A stretch of 64,000 nucleotides of DNA from Pontiellaceae bacterium (lineage in GTDB: Bacteria; Verrucomicrobiota; Kiritimatiellia; Kiritimatiellales; Pontiellaceae), in NCBI GenBank assembly GCA_016937945.1, contig JAFGVP010000073.1, forward strand, positions 1 to 64,000, in the 5' to 3' direction. Below are positions 28,494-38,925 of this stretch, piece after piece; positions within the stretch are counted from its first letter, which is position 1, and each line of letters begins with the position of its first letter. The position numbers and the translations under genes were made by a program. Under the pieces are notes generated by a model. The model saw only the letters and a list, made by a program, of their open reading frames with translations, searched no databases and was not told where the DNA came from.

Positions 28494-29183
28494 TCACGGA
28501 CAATAGCGGTATCCCACGCCATGTACCGTGCGCAACGCCGATGGATTGGCCGGATCGGCCTCCATTTTCTTGCGCAGCTTGGAAACATGCTGGTCCAGCG
28601 TACGGGTCGTACCGAAATAGCCGACGCCCCAAACCGCATCAAGCAGTTGATTGCGTGACAGCACCTCGCCGGCATGCTCATGGAAAAAACGGATCAGCTC
28701 CAGTTCGCGGTGCGACAGCGGTTCGCTATTTCCGGCCATGGAAATCGTGTAGGCCCGGCAGTCAACCGTGGCCGCCCCGAAGGAAAAAGTATCCGGAATC
28801 GACGATGTCGGATTGGTTTCTCCGGCGCGACGCAAGACCGCTTCCACGCGGGCGAGCAGTTCATGTACGCCAAACGGTTTGGTCACATAATCATCAGCGC
28901 CTAGCTGCAGGCCGACGACCTTGTCAATCTCTTCGCCTTTCGCAGTAAGCATGATGATCGGCACCCGGCTGTCTGACTTGCGGATTTCGCGGCATACATC
29001 ATACCCGCTCTTTTCCGGCATCATGACATCCAGCAGAACCAGATCGAAACGCCCCGCCGCATACTGCCCCAACGCAGTCGCGCCGTCACCGACCGCGCAC
29101 ACATCAAATCCGTCGCTCTCAAACAGATCAATCAGTCCGGCGCGAATGTTGGCATCATCTTCTGCAATCAGAATTTTCTTCAT
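28494..29183 (-). CDS. OmpR-type response regulator, last gene of the sortase locus
   Basis: 229 residues from the ATG at 29183, which overlaps the sensor kinase stop (ATGA) and has GGAG upstream. The receiver (1-120) has acidic residues in IAEDDAN, the phospho-acceptor Asp in LVLLDVMMPEKSG and the conserved Lys in DDYVTKPFG. The winged-helix DNA-binding domain (130-229) has LSHRELELIRFF and RTLDQHVSKLRKKM. It pairs with the upstream kinase. The TTACA direct repeats at 32223-32248 are a plausible target. Confidence 0.94.
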   Translation of the reverse strand: MKKILIAEDDANIRAGLIDLFESDGFDVCAVGDGATALGQYAAGRFDLVLLDVMMPEKSGYDVCREIRKSDSRVPIIMLTAKGEEIDKVVGLQLGADDYVTKPFGVHELLARVEAVLRRAGETNPTSSIPDTFSFGAATVDCRAYTISMAGNSEPLSHRELELIRFFHEHAGEVLSRNQLLDAVWGVGYFGTTRTLDQHVSKLRKKMEADPANPSALRTVHGVGYRYCP

Positions 29184-30793
29184 CGGTTCTCCACTCCCGG
29201 AACGGTCATGACAAAGCAGGCCCCGCCGCATTCGGCCTCGTGATATTCCAGCGCCCCGCCCAGATCCGTAATCAGCCGGCGCGACAGACTCAGCCCCAAA
29301 CCGCTGCCCTGACTGCTCGCCGTGATCGAATCATCAATGCGGTAAAAGCGTTCATAGATTTTCCGGCGATGCTCCTTTGCAATACCGGGTCCGGCGTCGG
29401 CCACGGCAATCCGGAATCCGCCGGATGCCTCGGCAAGCTCAATCGTCAGCCGGCCGCCGGCCGCCGCATATTTGACGGCATTATCAATCAGGTTCAGCAG
29501 CACCTGCTGGACGGCGTCGCGATCCGATTTAACCATGGCCGTAACATTCGGAAGAACGACCGACAGCTCCATGCCGGCCTCGCCAATCCGGATGCGCTGC
29601 GACGCCACCGTTTCCGAAACAACCTCGCACAGATCAAAATGGCTGATCCGGTATTGTTTCCGGTTCTGTTCCAGCCGACTGAAATCGAGCACATTATTCA
29701 CCAACCGCGAAAGCCGCTCACTTTCCGAGGCAATGGTTTTCAGATAACGGCCACGCTTTTCGATATCGCTTACGCGCCCCTCGCCAAGCAACTCGGCATA
29801 CATCCGGATCGTGGTCAGCGGCGTTTTGAGCTCGTGCGAAACATTGGATACAAACGTCGTTTTCTGCTGAGCTTCCAGCCGGTTCCGAACCGTTTCGCGC
29901 AGCAGCAGTCCGCCGGCGGAAAAGAGCACAATGAAGAGAATGAAAACAAGCAGGCCGGAAAGCAGCGCATAGCGTTGCGCCGCGGGACCTAACGCTCCGT
30001 CCGTCGTATGCAGCGCAAGCTCCCAATGCGGAAGCGCCGGACCCACCGGAACCGACAGCACCGCGGAAGTGCCGGATGTCTCGGCGATGGATCCCGACTG
30101 CATGATGCGGCGCCCGCTGCCATCCAGCAACAGGATCATTCGCCCGTCCACAATATCGAGGGGCATCGCCTGCTGCAGCTCGCAAAGCAGCATGGCCATT
30201 TCCAGTTCGACTCCATAGCGCAGGCCGTCGCGCTCCATCCAACCGATCATGCCGAGCCGGTTTTCCCAGTACCACGGAATCCAGCCGCTATGCATCGGCG
30301 GGTTCCAACCGCGGGATCGGGAAAACAGCCGTCTCGAAACCGGCGCCGCATATTCATCTTCCTGAACCACCTCGTCCCATCCGTGCGTTCCATCAAACAA
30401 CGTGCTGTAACGAATCAGGAATCCCTGCTCCTCCTTCGTCAGAGGCTCCGAATCATTCGGAAGCAGAAGATCGTTTGCGCCGCGCCAGACAAACACGTTG
30501 CGGACCAGCGGATTGGTCCGCTCCATCTCGCGCAGGGTATCGCGCAACGCGGAGGCAGGAATCGATTCAAGCGAGCGCATCAGTCCATCCTGAACCGCGG
30601 AAACCGCCAGTTCCAGCTGCTCCGCCCGGTTCTGCAGACGGAGTTCTTCGGTCTCGCGAACGGAACTGTCGAGCCGGGCCTGTTCCCGCGAAAGCAGACG
30701 CGCCGCCACTCCCGCTATAATCGCCGCGGAGAGCAGCAGCAACACCCCGTACAGAATGACCGGTGACTTCCTAATAGGAGGACCCCCGTTCAC
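29180..30793 (-). CDS. Sensor histidine kinase with large periplasmic domain
   Basis: 537 residues. Membrane segments are at about 11-31 and 275-298, enclosing a periplasmic domain of roughly 240 residues with no recognised fold. Then come HisKA with His in FVSNVSHELKTPLTTIRMYAE and an ATPase domain (VADAGPGIA, GSGLGLSLSRRL). The start is a GTG at 30793, 23 bp inside the upstream von Willebrand gene; a start slightly further in is possible. It is translationally coupled to both neighbours, so it should sense something about the von Willebrand/sortase machinery in the periplasm. Confidence 0.88.
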   Translation of the reverse strand: MNGGPPIRKSPVILYGVLLLLSAAIIAGVAARLLSREQARLDSSVRETEELRLQNRAEQLELAVSAVQDGLMRSLESIPASALRDTLREMERTNPLVRNVFVWRGANDLLLPNDSEPLTKEEQGFLIRYSTLFDGTHGWDEVVQEDEYAAPVSRRLFSRSRGWNPPMHSGWIPWYWENRLGMIGWMERDGLRYGVELEMAMLLCELQQAMPLDIVDGRMILLLDGSGRRIMQSGSIAETSGTSAVLSVPVGPALPHWELALHTTDGALGPAAQRYALLSGLLVFILFIVLFSAGGLLLRETVRNRLEAQQKTTFVSNVSHELKTPLTTIRMYAELLGEGRVSDIEKRGRYLKTIASESERLSRLVNNVLDFSRLEQNRKQYRISHFDLCEVVSETVASQRIRIGEAGMELSVVLPNVTAMVKSDRDAVQQVLLNLIDNAVKYAAAGGRLTIELAEASGGFRIAVADAGPGIAKEHRRKIYERFYRIDDSITASSQGSGLGLSLSRRLITDLGGALEYHEAECGGACFVMTVPGVENR

Positions 30794-32117
30794 TCTTCTG
30801 CTGATTAAAGATCCAGAAACTGCTGGTCCGCATTGATTTCCGACCCTCCTTATTCAGCTCCTGCTGGTTTTCAATATCCTTGGCCTGCTGCTGCATCTCC
30901 GCCGCCTGTGCCTCCAACTCCGGCAGTGAATTTTGCTCGGCAAACAGGGCCAGGTTTGCGCTGTTTACATAGAGAGTCTGTGCGGCGGCTTTATAATCCT
31001 GTTGGTCTGCATAATCGATGGCCTGCTCCTGCGCCACAGCCACTTCATTCAGCAGCACCTCTTTCTTCACCGCAACGTTCATGTTCCGGTCGACATCCTC
31101 GTTGTCCGCGCTGTAGCGTACCATTGCCTGACCGGAGCTGTTTGCCGGACGATTGGCGATCATGTCCTGATACGCACAGCGAGCCGCGGCAATCTGGCGG
31201 ACTTCGCCTTCGGCTCCGATGGGAAGCTCCACCTCAATGAGGGCATATTTCTGCTGGCCGCCGTAGAGCTGGTTCAGGGAAACTTCCACATGATCATTCC
31301 CGACGCGGCCGTCCCGGCCGATAATACGCAGCGGTCGAATGCCTTCCGGAAATTCCACATCAATCGTCACCTTGCCGGCAACCACGCTCAGCACATCGCC
31401 CAGCTCGGAAGCAAAGATGCGCGGCAGGTCGACACTCGATTCCACGAAATAGGTATTTCCATCGCTGTTCTGCGCCATCTGCGCCATGAGGTCTTCGTTA
31501 TAATCCGTACCCACCCCGATCGTCGTCACGGAGATTCCTTCCTTGCGAAGCGCCGTACCCAGCCGACCGAGTTCCGCCGGAGTTGAAGGCCCTACGTTTG
31601 CCAGTCCGTCCGACAGTAGCAGAATGCGGTTTACATAACGCCCGTCGAGATGCTTGCGGACTTCGGAAGCCCCCTGGCTCACGCCGGCAAACAGCGCCGT
31701 ACTCCCGCCGGCCGTTACCGACCGGATACGCCCTTCGATCCACTCCGTATTCGCCGCACTCTGAGCCGGCACAACGGTTGTGACCTGATCGTCATACGTC
31801 ACCAGCGAAAAGATATCCTCCGGCCCGAGCCTCAGCAGTGCCGCAATCGCCGCCTCACGCGCCTTGTCAATTTTCTGCCCGCCCATGGAACCGGAACGGT
31901 CCATCACGATAGTCAGATTCACCGGCGGCCGCTTGTTCAGCTTCGGGGCTTTGGGCGCATCCAGCGTAACCTTGACCACCGCCGTCTGCCGACTGCCGGA
32001 AAGCACCACAGGATGATCCATCTCCACTCGACAGACCACGTTCGACTCCGCCTGTGCGCTCCATGCGCCGGCCATCGCGACCGCCGCCGCCAGAAACTGT
32101 TTTGCCAATACCTTCAT
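30771..32117 (-). CDS. Exported von Willebrand factor A domain protein
   Basis: 448 residues; the second of two adjacent ATG codons (32117) best fits the GGAGG site. The signal peptide ends near WSAQAES. The vWA domain (about 65-240) has an intact metal-ion site: DRSGSMGG, a Thr in TAGGSTALFAG and LLSDGLANVG. It continues with a beta-rich region and a helical, Gln/Glu-rich C-terminus (about 375-448). The layout resembles the YfbK-like family. It has no C-terminal membrane segment and no sorting signal, so it is probably a soluble periplasmic partner. It lies between the sortase and the sensor kinase, overlapping the latter. Confidence 0.85.
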   Translation of the reverse strand: MKVLAKQFLAAAVAMAGAWSAQAESNVVCRVEMDHPVVLSGSRQTAVVKVTLDAPKAPKLNKRPPVNLTIVMDRSGSMGGQKIDKAREAAIAALLRLGPEDIFSLVTYDDQVTTVVPAQSAANTEWIEGRIRSVTAGGSTALFAGVSQGASEVRKHLDGRYVNRILLLSDGLANVGPSTPAELGRLGTALRKEGISVTTIGVGTDYNEDLMAQMAQNSDGNTYFVESSVDLPRIFASELGDVLSVVAGKVTIDVEFPEGIRPLRIIGRDGRVGNDHVEVSLNQLYGGQQKYALIEVELPIGAEGEVRQIAAARCAYQDMIANRPANSSGQAMVRYSADNEDVDRNMNVAVKKEVLLNEVAVAQEQAIDYADQQDYKAAAQTLYVNSANLALFAEQNSLPELEAQAAEMQQQAKDIENQQELNKEGRKSMRTSSFWIFNQQKSERGSSY

Positions 32118-32222
32118 CATGCACCTCCATGCTAGAAGATTCCCGACGTTGTGTCACGGGTCGTCCGCAACTGATCAACGAAGGAAAGGTAGCCGGCCGT
32201 ACAGCAGAAATGGTCACAGGCA

Positions 32223-32248
32223 TGTAAAACGTTTGTAAAAATATGTAA
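32223..32248 (-). promoter_or_regulatory. Direct-repeat site, probable response-regulator binding
   Basis: On the minus strand TTACA occurs three times (32244-32248, 32234-32238, 32223-32227) with 10- and 11-bp periods, the spacing used by OmpR/PhoB-type regulators. It lies 106-131 bp before the second von Willebrand gene, in the 146-bp gap behind the sortase gene. Confidence 0.45.
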
Positions 32249-32263
32249 CGGCACCGAACCAGC

Positions 32264-32791
32264 TCAGACCGGTTCGGCAACAGCAACAAACCGATCCGGC
32301 GCCGGACCGATGAAGCGGAATGGATAGCAGGTCAAAAGCAGGACGCATTCATGTTTTGACTGCTCCTGAAGAAAAGATTCCACCTCCTGCTTTGCGCAGA
32401 TATGAATCCGCCGAACGCGATACACCGCAACAGATCCATCGCGGGTTTCAATCAGGACTTCATCACCCTCTTTAATAGCATTCAATTCCCTAAAATGGGT
32501 GTCGCGATGCGCCATGATCAACGTCGCCAAACCGATCGACTCACTCCCCGGAAACCGGGACAGGTTTTCTCTATCTACGCCGGTCAGTACCAGCTGGCTG
32601 ATGTTTGCAGCAGGAATCTCCAGCCACAGGGAGGGTTCTCCATGCAGTCCCAATGCAGGCTCATTGCAGCAACAATTCCAGATTACAGCCGCATTCCACA
32701 TCAACCAGCCACGCTTCAGGCGCGAACCCACAGGACAGGCCGACACCGCCAGCCCTGCAATCAGCAACAGCAGCCATGCCCTACGCCGCAC
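32264..32791 (-). CDS. Sortase (small, class D/GN-like transpeptidase)
   Basis: 175 residues from a GTG at 32791, placed by GGAG five bases upstream. An N-terminal membrane anchor (MRRRAWLLLLIAGLAVSAC) leads into the sortase barrel. The catalytic triad is visible: His in LIMAHRDTHFREL, Cys in LLTCYPFRF and Arg in PAPDRFVAV. Sortases cleave a C-terminal signal and join the protein to an acceptor. In Gram-negatives a small sortase is typically paired with one dedicated VIT/vWA substrate, and the VIT/vWA gene here overlaps this start by 11 bases. The final acceptor in such cells is unknown. Length is typical of this small type. Confidence 0.92.
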   Translation of the reverse strand: MRRRAWLLLLIAGLAVSACPVGSRLKRGWLMWNAAVIWNCCCNEPALGLHGEPSLWLEIPAANISQLVLTGVDRENLSRFPGSESIGLATLIMAHRDTHFRELNAIKEGDEVLIETRDGSVAVYRVRRIHICAKQEVESFLQEQSKHECVLLLTCYPFRFIGPAPDRFVAVAEPV

Positions 32792-34751
32792 GTACGCTCC
32801 TTCGCCACAGCAGTGCGGCAAGAAGAATCAAAATCCCGAGAACCAGTTGCAGGGCTTCCTGAGTTGCAGTGGCGTACATCTGCCAGCCCTTCGGTGCCTC
32901 CACGGGAACGCGGACAGAAATCAGTTCGCCATCGCGGTTCACCACCTGTTCTTCGACGGCAACGCGCGATGTAAACCGGGTGACCAGCTGATGTTTCAAC
33001 GCAATGCGAATGACCGCCTGTTTCAATTCGTTGCCCACCACCTCATCATCGGTCTGCATCAGCTGAACCATCAGATCTTTGATCTGCATGCGGCCGTAAA
33101 GTGTATCGATTGCATCGTGTTGCTCGGTAGCGTGGTGTTCGAGATCGATTACATATTCCTGATGTTCGCCATCGATCTGGCCGATCACTTTCACCCGTCC
33201 TTCAAATCCGCCGGGGGCATAAGCGGCGACCTGTAGCGGACGGCCATAAAAGATATCCGGGCACCGCATCGGATAGGTATTCACTTCGGCCCCTTCCCAT
33301 TCCAGTTCCACATCAGTCAGCACAGGAGCATCCAGTGTCTGGAAAAAGTCGGCCATTACCTCGCCTATGTCTTCATGTGATCGAATGAAGCGCGACTGCC
33401 CGCGACCGACCTCAGCCATCCGATGCATCAGGAATTCATTGGGCGCACTGCCGATACCGAAGGTAAACAGCCGGGTATTGCCCAGCTCCTTTGACAGCAG
33501 ATTGATCAACGATTCCTCGTTACCGACATCGCCATCGGTCAGGAAAACCACCAACGGCATGCGACTGCCTGTATCGCCCATCAGCGAAAGCACATATGAA
33601 AGCGCCGACTGCATTTCCGTTCCGCCGTCGGCCGTCAGGTTGGCAATATATTCGCGCGCACCGGCCAGTTTGTCCGGCGAGGCATCGCGCAGGTCCGGAC
33701 TGAACCCGCTGTAGTTATCGGCAAACCGGACCACAGTAAAACGGTCTTCGGGATTCAGGATGTCCAGACATTTACGCAGGCCGGCCCGGGCCTGACTGAT
33801 GGAATCGCCGGACATGGAACCGCTGGTGTCGATCAGGAATATAACATCCTTCGGCAACGCCTTGTGCTTTCGCTCCCGTCCTATCGGAGGAAATACGCTC
33901 AGCAATCCGTACATCTCGTCACCCACCGACTGAACAAACGTAACAGCTGGTGCCTCATTGGCTCGCAACTGCACGGCAAGACTGAACTCACAATCGGGGC
34001 GAATCACGTCCTGCCCAGGCATGATGCGATAGCAGTCATGACCTTCATCATGAACCTGAATAGCATGAGTGCTGGAGGTGACCGTCCTTACCGGAAGTCC
34101 GTTGAGCGTTACATCAATACTCAACCGGTGACCGGAATCAAGACAGGGATACAGAACCGGAGGATTCAGGCGAGCGGCATCTTCCACCACCGTTTCCGGT
34201 TGCAGGTTTTCATCATACTTGAAGGGAATGTACCGCTCGCCCACAACCGTCGGAAACGTAATGTCATACCGGTCTTTTTGAAACCGCAACGCTTCGACAT
34301 ACGAAAAACAGATATCCACCGATTCACCCGGCATAAGGTTGGCCACGGACGTCGTAAAGAGGTTGGGCCGCTCCTGTTCAAGCAGGGCCGTATGGCGTCC
34401 TTCGGCCTTTGCCTGTTCATAAACCGCCTTCGCCTCTTCCTTCTCCCGTACAGTGCTCCTGACAACCCGGTCTTTTAACCGCAGTTCGAACCCGTCCACC
34501 GCCGCCTCCGACGGCAGAGGGAAAATATACACCGCTTCAAGCGGTCGATCCGCCGGATTGGTAAACCGCTGAATCACTTCTGTGCGTGCAATCCCTGCTG
34601 TAACGTCGATGTGTACCTCCGTCTTTTTCAACGGCAGCACAACCAACGCTTCGTTAGTGGTCGCCGGCGAAAACAGCACGCCGGCAATTTCCTGATCAGC
34701 GTGACCGAGCATGGTGGCGAACAGGGAAACCAGCATCATCCATTTTTTCAT
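32781..34751 (-). CDS. VIT and von Willebrand domain protein, probable sortase substrate
   Basis: 656 residues. A signal peptide (MKKWMMLVSLFATMLGHA) precedes a VIT domain (about 40-165: HIDVTAGIARTEVIQRFTNP and AVYIFPLPSEAAVDGFEL). The vWA domain (about 300-470) has the metal site DTSGSMSGDS and VFLTDGDVGNE. The C-terminus has a tripartite sorting signal: YATATQ, a hydrophobic helix, then RRSVRAA. In the proteobacterial sortase-target family a motif like LPxTAT is usual; here LP is replaced by MY. It overlaps creD (ATGA) upstream and the sortase downstream. It is probably exported and handled by the sortase. Confidence 0.92.
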   Translation of the reverse strand: MKKWMMLVSLFATMLGHADQEIAGVLFSPATTNEALVVLPLKKTEVHIDVTAGIARTEVIQRFTNPADRPLEAVYIFPLPSEAAVDGFELRLKDRVVRSTVREKEEAKAVYEQAKAEGRHTALLEQERPNLFTTSVANLMPGESVDICFSYVEALRFQKDRYDITFPTVVGERYIPFKYDENLQPETVVEDAARLNPPVLYPCLDSGHRLSIDVTLNGLPVRTVTSSTHAIQVHDEGHDCYRIMPGQDVIRPDCEFSLAVQLRANEAPAVTFVQSVGDEMYGLLSVFPPIGRERKHKALPKDVIFLIDTSGSMSGDSISQARAGLRKCLDILNPEDRFTVVRFADNYSGFSPDLRDASPDKLAGAREYIANLTADGGTEMQSALSYVLSLMGDTGSRMPLVVFLTDGDVGNEESLINLLSKELGNTRLFTFGIGSAPNEFLMHRMAEVGRGQSRFIRSHEDIGEVMADFFQTLDAPVLTDVELEWEGAEVNTYPMRCPDIFYGRPLQVAAYAPGGFEGRVKVIGQIDGEHQEYVIDLEHHATEQHDAIDTLYGRMQIKDLMVQLMQTDDEVVGNELKQAVIRIALKHQLVTRFTSRVAVEEQVVNRDGELISVRVPVEAPKGWQMYATATQEALQLVLGILILLAALLWRRSVRAA

Positions 34752-36082
34752 CGAACGACTCCTTCCGGTTTAACGCCGATGGCGTACCAATCCACCTTAC
34801 GGGTAATCAGCATGGCGCCGGCCATCAACCCAAACAGCAGGACCGATCCGGCAATCAGAGCGTGGTCTTCCGACTGCAGCAAAGCAAACAACGCGGCATA
34901 AAGCAGGGAAAGCAGGGCACCGAACGATAGACCGCGGCGGGCCGACCGCATCACGTTGCACAGATAAAAGCTGATCAGACCAATGGTTGCCAGGCTGGCC
35001 AGGCCATAGGAAATGCCGAAGCCGACATGCTCCGACAGACTGAGCAGGAGAAGGAAGAAAACAGCCTGGGCCAGCCCGACAAATCCATACTGCACCGGAT
35101 GAATCCGAAGATCCTCCAGCATTTCAAAAAGGAAGAACGCAGAAAAGGTGATGAAGATAAACAGGAAGCCATACTTCAGCGCGCGGTCCGTCAACGGATA
35201 GGGATTGACCGGATCAATCAGGCTCACGCCCATTTGCTGCATCCGGGAGGGCGCCCCGTCGAGCATGGCCTGCTGAGCGGAACAGGCCAGTCCGTTCACG
35301 TTCCACTCCGCAGCAAATCCGTCGTCAGAGACCGTGCGATCGGTCGCCAGAAAATCGCCGATAAAGCTCGGATGTGGCCATGAGGAATTCAGACGAATGC
35401 AATTTTCCGAACCGATCGGAACAAAGGTCAGCGAGCCCATGCCGTACAGATCCAGATCCATCGAAAAATCAAAGGTCTGTCCCGCCAGGGATTCCGGGTC
35501 CGGCAGCTCGGCGTGAACACCGCTCGAGGCATTTGACAGCAGACTTCCCGCTTCGACTTTGAGCGGTCGGTTGTTCCACGACAGCGCGGACACATGGGAA
35601 ATTCCGCGCGGGTCCGCAATCATGAAGCCGGCGGACGCCGAGATCAGTTCCACGCGGGAAGCCTCTTTCTCCGCCAGCGGCTCAAGCAGGGGAAATGTCA
35701 CCGCTCCTGAGAGGAGTCCTTCACTCTGGAACACATTGGCCTTAAAGATGCCCCGGTAGCGCTCCTGCACCGCCATTCCGCCTTCATAGCTGAAGCTTTC
35801 CGGGAAGACGAGAACCGTCCGTTCCTCGCTTCGCTCCTTGTCGTACCAGCCATCCTTGCTCGCACTGTAAAGTCGTTCGTTCCAGGTTTCTCGATAGACC
35901 AGTGTAAAAACCGGCCCTGAAATTTTCTGTTCACCGGCATAGCTCCCCGCGATATCCCGTTCCACTTCATACTGTCGCTGACGCCGCTCCATCGTCAGTC
36001 CGCCGATTGATGACAGAATGAACAGCAGGATCAGTGCGATCCCGCCAAGCACGATTAACTTTATTCCCACTCTCCATTGCAT
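34748..36082 (-). CDS. creD: CreD family inner-membrane protein
   Basis: 444 residues. An N-terminal membrane helix (IKLIVLGGIALILLFILSSIGGL) and the family signature MERRQRQYEVERDIAGSY are followed by a periplasmic domain (about 45-290) and five or six C-terminal helices (FLFIFITFSAFFLFEMLEDLRIHPVQYGFVGLAQ is characteristic). In enteric bacteria creD is the main target of CreBC and affects the envelope and beta-lactam response; its biochemical role is not known. AAGGAGG precedes the ATG, and a CreB-type binding site lies 53 bp upstream. It is the first gene of the stretch running into the sortase. Confidence 0.95.
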   Translation of the reverse strand: MQWRVGIKLIVLGGIALILLFILSSIGGLTMERRQRQYEVERDIAGSYAGEQKISGPVFTLVYRETWNERLYSASKDGWYDKERSEERTVLVFPESFSYEGGMAVQERYRGIFKANVFQSEGLLSGAVTFPLLEPLAEKEASRVELISASAGFMIADPRGISHVSALSWNNRPLKVEAGSLLSNASSGVHAELPDPESLAGQTFDFSMDLDLYGMGSLTFVPIGSENCIRLNSSWPHPSFIGDFLATDRTVSDDGFAAEWNVNGLACSAQQAMLDGAPSRMQQMGVSLIDPVNPYPLTDRALKYGFLFIFITFSAFFLFEMLEDLRIHPVQYGFVGLAQAVFFLLLLSLSEHVGFGISYGLASLATIGLISFYLCNVMRSARRGLSFGALLSLLYAALFALLQSEDHALIAGSVLLFGLMAGAMLITRKVDWYAIGVKPEGVVR

Positions 36083-36134
36083 ACCCAGCCTCCTTGGTTA
36101 TGCGAAGAGACTGCCACGCTCTTTTGAAGGCCGT

Positions 36135-36161
36135 ATGAACTGAATGTGAAATGGAGGTGAA
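36135..36161 (-). promoter_or_regulatory. CreB-type binding site upstream of creD
   Basis: On the minus strand TTCAC-N6-TTCAC-N6-TTCAT (36157-36161, 36146-36150, 36135-36139). This matches the published E. coli cre tag TTCACnnnnnnTTCAC with a third half-site in the same 11-bp phase. It ends 53 bp before the creD start codon. Confidence 0.75.
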
Positions 36162-36173
36162 AAAAGGATTATT

Positions 36174-36245
36174 CAGCCACAAAGGGCACAAGAAACCCAA
36201 AACATGGCATTCGTAATCCATGCTACCCTTTGTGTCTTTTGTGGC
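36174..36245. repeat. Hairpin repeat, CCACAAAGGGCACA type
   Basis: GCCACAAAGGGCACAAGAAA at the left pairs with the inverted sequence ending CTTTTGTGGC at the right. CATGG and CCATG form an inner stem. It starts a 440-bp creC-creD gap (36083-36524) that holds this repeat, the next two repeats and the CreB site, but no gene. Confidence 0.65.
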
Positions 36246-36305
36246 AAAATAATCTACCCCTCAACCGGGACGAAGAAACGCAGCGCGGCATTGCCACAAC
36301 CGGGG

Positions 36306-36382
36306 TTCACCACAGAGGACACCGAGGAACACAGAGGAATACCCTCCGCGACCTCTATGCCCTCTAGCGGAGCGGTTGGTAA
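36306..36382. repeat. Hairpin repeat, CACAGAGGACACCGAGG type
   Basis: The left half reads ACCACAGAGGACACCGAGG with a second AACACAGAGG unit. The right half holds CCTCTATGCCCTCT and GGTTGGT as an imperfect complement. Such 'accacagaggacacagagg' hairpins are widespread intergenic elements in many bacterial groups; their role is not settled. Confidence 0.55.
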
Positions 36383-36423
36383 AAACCTGCCGGAAAGACA
36401 GGAAAATGACGGATAACCGTACA

Positions 36424-36461
36424 GACGCAAAGAGGCTCTCTTTCTTCGCGGCTTTGCGGTC
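36424..36461. repeat. Hairpin repeat, CGCAAAG type
   Basis: GACGCAAAG (36424-36432) pairs imperfectly with CTTTGCGGTC (36452-36461), with a CTCTCTTTCTTCG loop region. It is the third inverted repeat in this gap and lies just past the creC stop region. Confidence 0.55.
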
Positions 36462-36524
36462 ATGAACTCCATTCCACCTGCGGCGCGCCCGGAGATCGCG
36501 CCCTACCTTATGGTGAAGAACACC

Positions 36525-37961
36525 CTACCCTTCCACGGGAATAAGGAGCGAGGCACAGACACCGCCTTCGGGACGGTTGGAGAGCCGGACATCGCCGGAA
36601 TGCAGTTTGGCGATTTCACGCACAAAGTTAAGCCCGAGCCCTGAGCCCTTCTTTCCGTTGGCCGGGCGCTGCAGGGAATAGAAGCGTTCAAAGATGCGGT
36701 CGATGGCATAATCGGGAATGCCTGAACCGCGATCCAGCACCTCAAAGATCATCCGTTCGTTTTCGCGCCGGACCACTAATTCAACGGCGGCCCCATCCGG
36801 AGAAAAATCAAGCGCGTTGCGCAACAGGTTGGACAACGCCTGACGCAGCAGGAAATATTCGCCGCACAGCGTCAGGTCATCCGGCACGGATTTGTTAATT
36901 TCGATTTTCCGGGCGCGGGCCACCGGCATCAGGCTATCGAGCACATCGTTCAGCAATTCGTGCGCATCGATCAGTTCCGTATGCATAAGCCCCTTGCGCT
37001 TTTCCAGCGCGGCGAGCGAAAGCATCCGGTCAACCAGTCCCTGCATCCGTTCCGACTCGGACCGGATATTATCCAGAAAACGTTTTCGCTGCTCCGGCGC
37101 CATTTCTTCGTTCAGCAGCTCGGCGGCGCCGCGGATTGCGGCCAGCGGACTCTTCATCTCATGAGTCAGCGACTGCACATACTCTTCGACATACTGCTTG
37201 CCTTCCAGTGCATCGCGCATCTCTTCGAATGCCGTGGCCAGCTCGCTCATTTCGCCGCCATGCCCAAGCTTCGGGCGCCGGACGGACCGGCCGTCACGAA
37301 TGGCCCGCGCATAACCGGTCAGCGCCTTGACCGGATGAATGATCCACAGCGAAACCGGAATCAGCATCAGCAGGATCGCAAGAAACGCCACCGTACAGGA
37401 AATCACCAGCCGCGCCTTGGCCTGCTGCATGAACGGCGCAATGCTCTTCACCGGTTTACCAACCGTTACAGCGCCGACAATCTCACCATCCACAACAATC
37501 GGAGCGGCAATGTAAAAGTGAAAGCTGTCCATGTCGCCCGGAACATCATACGACGCACGCGCACCGTATTCGCCCTTGAGTGCCAGACGCGTATCGCGCC
37601 AGTGGTATTCATCGCCGGCCATCATGTCGTGATGAGAATCATAAACAATCTGCTCATCGCGATTCACCACCAGCACCCGCACATTCATGTTGGTCTTGGT
37701 GTGGTTATAGATTCCCGCCGCAAGTTCCCGTTCGCCGGCGGATTCCAGCGCATCGCGAAACGAATCATCCATCTCGATTCGTCCATCTACCACCTGCCGG
37801 CCCACCTGCTCCGCAAGAAGCACCGAAGTATCCACCAGCGACTCCTCCATCGTAATGAAATAGTGCAGCCGCACATCCTGCACAATCCAGTCGACCAGCA
37901 GATAAAAACCGGCTGACAGCAGCACCAGTGCAGTCAGCAGCAGACGGGTACGCATCTTCAT
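36525..37961 (-). CDS. creC: Sensor histidine kinase CreC
   Basis: 478 residues from the ATG at 37961, overlapping the creB stop as ATGA. Membrane segments at about 7-27 and 185-206 flank a periplasmic Cache-like sensor domain (VRVLVVNRDEQIVYDSH, FHFYIAAPIVVDGEIVGAVTVGKP). A HAMP domain, HisKA with YVQSLTHEMKSPLAAIRGAAELL (the CreC signature, His at its centre) and an ATPase domain (DRGSGIPDYA, GSGLGLNFVREIAKLH) follow. It should phosphorylate CreB. A gap of 442 bp full of hairpin repeats separates it from creD, which therefore has its own CreB-controlled promoter. Confidence 0.94.
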   Translation of the reverse strand: MKMRTRLLLTALVLLSAGFYLLVDWIVQDVRLHYFITMEESLVDTSVLLAEQVGRQVVDGRIEMDDSFRDALESAGERELAAGIYNHTKTNMNVRVLVVNRDEQIVYDSHHDMMAGDEYHWRDTRLALKGEYGARASYDVPGDMDSFHFYIAAPIVVDGEIVGAVTVGKPVKSIAPFMQQAKARLVISCTVAFLAILLMLIPVSLWIIHPVKALTGYARAIRDGRSVRRPKLGHGGEMSELATAFEEMRDALEGKQYVEEYVQSLTHEMKSPLAAIRGAAELLNEEMAPEQRKRFLDNIRSESERMQGLVDRMLSLAALEKRKGLMHTELIDAHELLNDVLDSLMPVARARKIEINKSVPDDLTLCGEYFLLRQALSNLLRNALDFSPDGAAVELVVRRENERMIFEVLDRGSGIPDYAIDRIFERFYSLQRPANGKKGSGLGLNFVREIAKLHSGDVRLSNRPEGGVCASLLIPVEG

Positions 37962-38665
37962 GCATTCACCTGCAGGCAATACCCCCAGCCGCGGCGCGTC
38001 TGCAGGCAGTCGGAACGGGGATCAATCTCACGCAGCTTGGAACGCAGTGTCTTGATATGCGTATCCACGGTCCGGTCAAAACTTGCTTCCGGCTCGTCCC
38101 ACGCATGATTCATCAGCTGCTCGCGCGAAAAGACCTGACCCGGATGAGCAATCATCAGCTCCAGCATGCGGTATTCATAGCGCGACAAACCGAGCGGCTT
38201 TCCGCGATAAAAGATATCCTTGCGTAGTGCATCGACGCGGAAAAGGGACGGCGCCTCGACCGCCTGCGCGGGATTATGGTTTCCGTTGGTCCGGCGCAGA
38301 ATGGCGCGGATGCGCGCGGTCAGCTCCCGCGGACTGAACGGCTTGGTCATATAGTCGTCCGCACCCAGCTCAAGCCCGACAATGCGATCGATCTCCTCCT
38401 CGCGCGCGGTCAGGAAAATGATCGGCACCTCGGAACAGGTCCGGATGCGACGGCAGAAATCAAAGCCGTTTTCATCCGGCAGGCCGACATCAAGTACCAT
38501 CAGATCAACCGGTTGCATCTGTAATACCTGCCACGCACCGCCAGCCGTATTCACACAGATCGGCTCCATGTTTTCCGTACTCACCGCAAAAGCGATGTTC
38601 TCGGCAATCGACGGCTCATCCTCGACGATCAGGATCTGCTTTTTCTCAATGTGGATGGATTCCAT
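37958..38665 (-). CDS. creB: Response regulator CreB
   Basis: 235 residues. I place the start at the ATG at 38665 (MESIHIEKKQILIVEDEPS); a GTG 22 codons upstream would overlap the DUF504 remnant and is less likely. The receiver has acidic residues in IVEDEPS, Asp in LMVLDVGLPDENGFD and Lys in DDYMTKPFS. The winged-helix domain ends with FDRTVDTHIKTLRSKLR and TRRGWGYCLQ, close to E. coli CreB. A CreB-type site before creD and the coupling to creC support the name. Confidence 0.93.
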   Translation of the reverse strand: MESIHIEKKQILIVEDEPSIAENIAFAVSTENMEPICVNTAGGAWQVLQMQPVDLMVLDVGLPDENGFDFCRRIRTCSEVPIIFLTAREEEIDRIVGLELGADDYMTKPFSPRELTARIRAILRRTNGNHNPAQAVEAPSLFRVDALRKDIFYRGKPLGLSRYEYRMLELMIAHPGQVFSREQLMNHAWDEPEASFDRTVDTHIKTLRSKLREIDPRSDCLQTRRGWGYCLQVNA

Positions 38666-38690
38666 GATCGGGGAATATATTTCAACCGCC

Positions 38691-38925
38691 TCATTGATTC
38701 CAGATTGTTTGACCATTCTTACGAACTTCACGAATGCGGTGAAAGGGAATCGTCAGGACTTCGCCATGAACACAAATGGTGAAGGAAAAATGGTTGCCCA
38801 CTTCGCTATGCAACTCCTCGAGACAATGGAATTCAACAGCGTCGTCAAATACCCGCCTCGAACGAGCCCTGACCACAGACATTGTCCCAACGAATGCGAT
38901 TCAGCAGTTCCCTGATTGTTTCCAT
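38691..38925 (-). pseudogene. DUF504 family gene with a frameshift
   Basis: From the ATG at 38925 the reading is METIRELLNRIRWDN and GSFEAGI, then TGA at 38845-38847. In the next frame the sequence continues FDDAVEFHCLEEL, then GEVLTIPFHRIREVRKNG and the end QTIWNQ. Joined together this is a complete DUF504 protein of about 77 residues (the family ends IPxHRIREVxxxGxxxW). One base gained or lost near 38850 separates the halves. The function of the family is unknown. It may be a recent pseudogene or a sequencing error. Confidence 0.7.

Follow-up and report, generated by a model that had tools for sequence, protein, structure and literature searches.

A four-repeat box upstream of creD in Pontiellaceae and its probable role as a CreB operator-promoter

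To understand how the creD gene of a Pontiellaceae bacterium (a family placed in Kiritimatiellota) might be controlled, we asked whether the TTCAC repeats in front of it form an operator for the envelope-stress response regulator CreB and, if so, how far that operator extends. The CreBC system has been known for decades. Its cre/blr tag, TTCACnnnnnnTTCAC, is required for BlrA induction (PMC3660660), creD is a CreBC target (PMC4689548), and creD induction in P. aeruginosa depends on creBC (PMC2654508). In S. maltophilia, a putative tag of the form TTCAC-N6-TTCAA lies before creD at about -80 (PMC4689548), while in Salmonella CreB binds at a promoter that lacks a typical tag (PMC7873081). The analyzed stretch, referred to as the window, comprises 64,000 nucleotides of contig JAFGVP010000073.1 (assembly GCA_016937945.1) and contains the following features around the repeats.

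36124..36161, minus strand: four 11-bp-phased putative CreB half-sites (a double cre tag), TTCACctccatTTCACattcagTTCATacggccTTCAA; all 16 TTCA positions shared by 8/8 genus genomes
36146..36161, minus strand: exact canonical cre tag TTCACN6TTCAC, motif as in PMC3660660 and PMC4689548
36108..36113, minus strand: predicted -10 element CAGTCT, exactly 10 bp past half-site 4
36089..36094, minus strand: likely Shine-Dalgarno sequence of creD, AGGAGG
34748..36082, minus strand: creD, 444 aa (NF008712, 456.7 bits, cut-off 275; PF06123)
36525..37979, minus strand: creC, sensor kinase (NF008312, 528.5 bits, cut-off 356)
37958..38731, minus strand: creB, response regulator, open frame as listed (NF008296, 306.8 bits, cut-off 273)
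32781..34751, minus strand: VIT/VWA protein gene (TIGR03788-like, 549.4 bits, cut-off 551.65)
32264..32821, minus strand: sortase gene (PF04203; passes the general TIGR01076 cut-off but none of the class cut-offs)

The locus is ordered creB, creC, a 363-bp gap, the box, and creD, with the flanking genes exceeding the NCBIfam equivalog cut-offs for CreB, CreC, and CreD. The PF06123 match covers positions 2-428 of CreD, most of the family length, and the true start of creB is probably about 38665. From 36161 to 36124 the minus strand, which is also the strand of creB, creC, and creD, reads TTCAC-N6-TTCAC-N6-TTCAT-N6-TTCAA. The first two half-sites (TTCAC, 36161-36157; TTCAC, 36150-36146) form an exact TTCAC-N6-TTCAC at 36146-36161, upstream of creD and in its orientation, as the preliminary description had reported; this is the sole exact match within the 64-kb window. 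That description counted three half-sites, 53 bp before creD. The distance is correct when measured from the third half-site (TTCAT, 36139-36135), and all three are indeed present at 11-bp spacing, but a fourth phased half-site (TTCAA, 36128-36124) had been overlooked. Its end lies 42 bp from the creD ATG (36082). Judged by sequence and context, the cre site is a CreB tag. The creC-creD gap also holds repeats at 36172-36470, one imperfect and inverted (CCACAAAGGGCAC... / ...TTTGTGTCTTTTGTGG) and others purine-rich (CACAGAGGA), which may represent a mobile repeat element; a comparable palindrome occupies the corresponding position at locus L105.

The two-unit tag by itself is weak evidence, because at two mismatches the window is no richer in it than shuffled sequence (45 found, 49 expected). 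This lack of enrichment would suit an array that arose by chance or as part of a low-complexity tract. The four-repeat pattern behaves differently. With up to three mismatches, it was found at five places in the window against 0.47 expected, a count reached in 0 of 100 shuffles, and three of the five were registers of the creD array itself. The exact pattern occurs once in the 4.28-Mb genome, at the creD array. We extended this comparison to 29 genomes called as the same genus or family (including that of the window), eight of which have CreD. Four units precede creD in all eight, and each genome carries the exact pattern at one place only, before creD. A reversed-pattern control over 388 genomes of the phylum returned only a handful of matches. 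We regard a chance origin as having next to no probability, and rejected it on the conservation in 8/8 genomes.

Within the genus, conservation is concentrated in the repeats. In an alignment of the eight sequences anchored on the box, none of the 16 TTCA positions varied. On average, the commonest base was shared by 8.0 of the eight sequences at half-site positions, against 5.6 in spacers and 3.9 over the 30 bp upstream. The hexamer that follows likewise kept A2 and T6 in 8/8. Absence of the motif before creD in close relatives, proposed at the outset as grounds for abandoning an operator, was thus not observed. The cre tag before creD is also conserved in family f46.

We then considered whether only the classical tag matters. 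The literature examined defines a 16-bp tag only, and in the window the last base is T in half-site 3 and A in half-site 4 instead of C, so half-sites 1 and 2 could be functional alone, with the others decayed or incidental. Against this, both of the later half-sites keep their TTCA unchanged in 8/8 genomes. Further evidence came from creD upstream regions in two samples: full-length CreD genes among 86 matching genomes out of 388 for the phylum, and 60 matching genomes drawn from 399 for Pseudomonadota, plus named plasmid-collection records. A creD scan of named genomes covered six loci. A single-period test for four TTCA units was dropped, as it missed the 10-bp gap of E. coli-like arrays, TCCA units, and five-unit arrays. 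Instead, arrays were found with a softer score that allows a 10-12 bp middle gap, under which some long-diverged loci still rate poorly. Selection used this half-site score alone (≥13.5) and was blind to the hexamer.

creBC-linked creD genes typically carry four phased units, and some loci seem to have a fifth. The genus of the window and family f46 have TTCAN units, Xanthomonas and relatives TTCAC.TTCAA.CTCAA or CACAA.CCCAC or CTCAC, Vibrio four TCCAY units, and E. coli and Klebsiella TTCAC-11-TTCAC-10-TTCAA-11-CCCAC. At exactly +10 from the array, a hexamer with A2 and T6 was present in 35 of the 42 creBC-linked arrays from two phyla, compared with 0-6 of 42 at other offsets and a background of about 0.04 per position. 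Among creD genes without creBC, 7 of 64 arrays had it. The 35/42 tally is unpicked, while a tally of 24/27 refers to hand-picked lineages. A binomial figure for the +10 hexamer overstates its significance because related genomes are not independent; the clustering of hexamers at one offset does not rest on that figure. In family f55 (L084, L085, L087), creD lies ahead of creB and is preceded by three clear units and a poor fourth, with +10 hexamers TAAGCT and TAACTT at two of the three loci.

The four-unit layout is therefore repeated in separate lineages, with the -10 distance fixed relative to half-site 4, which makes a functional tag of two units improbable. It also qualifies a further point of the preliminary description: the tag is extended, but not peculiarly so in Pontiellaceae, since Pseudomonadota, including E. 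coli, share both the four-unit layout and the fixed -10 distance at creBC-linked creD genes.

To relate the four-unit box to its presumed regulator, we compared their distributions across the 388 phylum genomes. Four units plus a -10 element, with at most one mismatch, were found in 44 genomes, and CreB above the cut-off in 53. The two coincide in 32 genomes (32/44 box genomes against 53/388 overall; Fisher p ~5e-23). Together with neighbors identified as CreB and CreC by NCBIfam, this co-occurrence supports the earlier proposal of a conserved operator. Some one-mismatch matches, being AT-rich or simple repeats, are probably noise. Of the 24 genomes with an exact box, 20 have CreB above the cut-off; among the remaining four, G072 encodes a long-linker CreB absent from the search listing. 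Conversely, 21 CreB-positive genomes have no box within one mismatch, so that either the operator drifts or some targets differ.

Half-site sequence also tracks the recognition helix of CreB. Proteins with the helix RT...HIKT (KS in one) are paired with TTCA first units in 29/29 clear cases, apart from one mixed array (L128), and those with RN or RS...HIK followed by S, A, or G with TCCA first units in 12/12. TCCAY units stand at creD at L054, L056, L057 (Vibrio), L113-L127 (Pseudomonadota), and L159, where N or S replaces T at two places of the helix. As the TCCA group is a single clade in the CreB+CreC tree, this covariation perhaps reflects one evolutionary event. The DNA-binding domain of CreB matches PhoB 1gxp, with the aligned recognition helices reading RTVDTHIKTLR in CreB and RTVDVHIRRLR in PhoB; a PDB search found no CreB structure.

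These patterns also bear on whether another OmpR-family regulator binds the array. Downstream of creD, on the minus strand at 28509-34751, the window encodes not only the VIT/VWA protein and the sortase but also another VWA protein and the histidine kinase and response regulator of a second two-component system. Phased direct repeats are preferred by OmpR/PhoB-family regulators in general, and the second regulator (28509-29180) shares the gene neighborhood, such that this second two-component system (28509-30793) beside the sortase operon, or PhoB, could be proposed instead. However, the box follows the presence of CreB across genomes, its half-sites follow the CreB helix, and the identical E. 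coli tag is known to be CreB-bound (PMC3660660). We consider a different regulator very improbable. Assignment of the creB gene itself as PhoB was rejected, as it scores 199.0 bits against the TIGR02154 cut-off of 296.2 and its half-site is TTCAY.

Losses and rearrangements were found among relatives. Four genomes of the same order or class (G106, G051, G211, G179) have a boxless creD. Their CreD proteins are 47-60% identical to that of the window and fall in one clade with it at 100% support, while their best CreB match is merely 33-38% identical, the level of a paralogue. In G027, creD is not behind creBC but has retained the box, and a CreB of 75% identity is encoded on another contig. In G351 (L075), creC and creD are separated by an additional stretch that apparently contains an open frame, and the box lies directly after creC, ahead of that stretch. 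In the CreB+CreC tree (root unplaced), the genus, family f46, and Pseudomonadota form three separate clades, which makes a recent import of creBC from Pseudomonadota unlikely. Genus CreD groups with other members of its class in the CreD tree. The creBC genes may have arrived by ancient transfer or come by common descent, two origins that the trees do not separate.

Our data suggest that the site at 36108-36161 is very probably the operator-promoter of a creD-VIT/VWA-sortase operon, worked by the neighboring CreB as two tandem dimers in the manner of PhoB. At PhoB promoters, the box occupies the position of the -35 element. PhoB boxes consist of two 11-bp direct repeats (PMC3978041). Direct repeats of 11 bp and a short, fixed distance to the -10 element, at the 10-bp offset found in 35/42 arrays, describe creBC-linked creD genes equally; read from sequence, this +10 geometry is that of a PhoB-type promoter in which the box replaces the -35 element. 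Against this reading, the hexamer CAGTCT differs widely from TATAAT. In the proposed mechanism, phosphorylated CreB would bind head-to-tail. As each 11-bp repeat would take one winged-helix domain, the four repeats would seat a pair of CreB dimers, both on the same face of the DNA. Repeat four would replace the -35 element, 10 bp from the -10 hexamer, allowing CreB to recruit sigma-70 RNA polymerase at a -35-less promoter, as PhoB does at pho boxes. Occupancy by two dimers, the transcription start, and co-transcription of the genes downstream of creD are thus predictions of the model. CreB would activate rather than repress creD here, although the sign of control may vary, since deletion of creBC in S. 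maltophilia raised the creD transcript 3.8-fold (PMC4689548).

The predicted transcript would extend beyond creD. The VIT/VWA gene overlaps the creD stop by 4 bp, so the two probably form one operon, and the sortase gene in turn overlaps the VIT/VWA gene. No obvious LPxTG was found near the C-terminus of the VIT/VWA protein. The creD-VIT/VWA-sortase order is kept at L179 and L182; directly behind creD, G019 and G028 have VIT/VWA and sortase genes, as does the window.

Boxes also stand before other genes, where open frames were called mechanically and the first-gene assignment is unsure at places without family matches. In five genomes (G107, G114, G242, G093, G261), a box precedes a VIT/VWA gene that has an XrtQ-like exosortase gene (PF09721) behind it, and in G168 it precedes VIT-containing genes. 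Four-unit boxes with a -10 element were seen before VIT or VIT/VWA genes at L262:3091, L262:7104 (G114), L238, L251, L255, L257, L237, and L236. Families f44, f46, and f52 have boxes before such genes, with the XrtQ-like exosortase next in most. At L229, L232, and L247, the box precedes a ~550-aa open frame that matches no Pfam family, and a divergent CreD comes next. Frames of this size directly behind a box lie at L226:368-2008, L229:2109-3830, L232:3913-5529, L234:2141-3811, and L247:3719-5386. In G242 (L256), a four-unit box stands about 90 bp ahead of creB itself, which suggests that creBC is autoregulated there.

The recurrence of the layout in most of the CreB lineages surveyed and the boxes before surface-anchoring enzyme genes suggest an old, wider CreB programme. 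We lean toward a version that spans Verrucomicrobiota/Kiritimatiellota and includes creD (or a divergent CreD with the ~550-aa protein) together with a VIT/VWA surface protein and the sortase or exosortase that goes with it, the operator units and the recognition helix having changed together. If CreB does govern these genes, Cre would be a response of envelope-surface anchoring and not chiefly a regulator of carbon or beta-lactamase functions. Four units, 10 bp, and a -10 element constitute a sharper operator that can be searched for in genomes without prior knowledge, and they place an old Cre circuit outside Pseudomonadota. The two variable helix positions are candidates for half-site recognition, and the VIT/VWA-sortase/exosortase loci, as putative co-regulated partners, offer a lead on the role of CreD and the Cre response. 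As far as checked, three things are new, namely the occurrence in Kiritimatiellota, the architecture of four units plus a -10 element, and the link to VIT/VWA-sortase/exosortase genes; we claim no priority for the four-unit view, as the primary papers on the E. coli creD promoter lie outside the literature checked.

Several known systems share parts of this arrangement. In the proteobacterial dedicated sortase system (TIGR03788 target, TIGR03784 sortase), a VIT/VWA target-like protein, a sortase, and a two-component system adjoin, as they do here. In contrast, the Pontiellaceae genes sit behind creD and a CreB box, their VIT/VWA protein scores 549.4 bits, just short of the equivalog cut-off of 551.65, and their sortase falls under the class cut-offs. 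PhoB-dependent sigma-70 promoters also carry tandem boxes of 11-bp direct repeats arranged head-to-tail, but the half-site here is TTCAY rather than that of PhoB, and the regulator is CreB. For S. maltophilia, the published tag marks the first two units only (PMC4689548); the Xanthomonas-related loci L130-L133 have four, TTCAC.TTCAA.CACAA.CTCAC, plus the +10 hexamer. The closest counterpart is the cre/blr tag of E. coli and Aeromonas (TTCACnnnnnnTTCAC), with the same half-sites, orientation, position before creD, and creBC-creD order. In E. coli, a -10-like TATCCT lies 10 bp past a fourth, degenerate unit; the layout matches, but its second half is worn. The Pontiellaceae array, from a different phylum, instead has four intact TTCAN units in strict 11-bp phase, and its gene run extends into the VIT/VWA and sortase genes.
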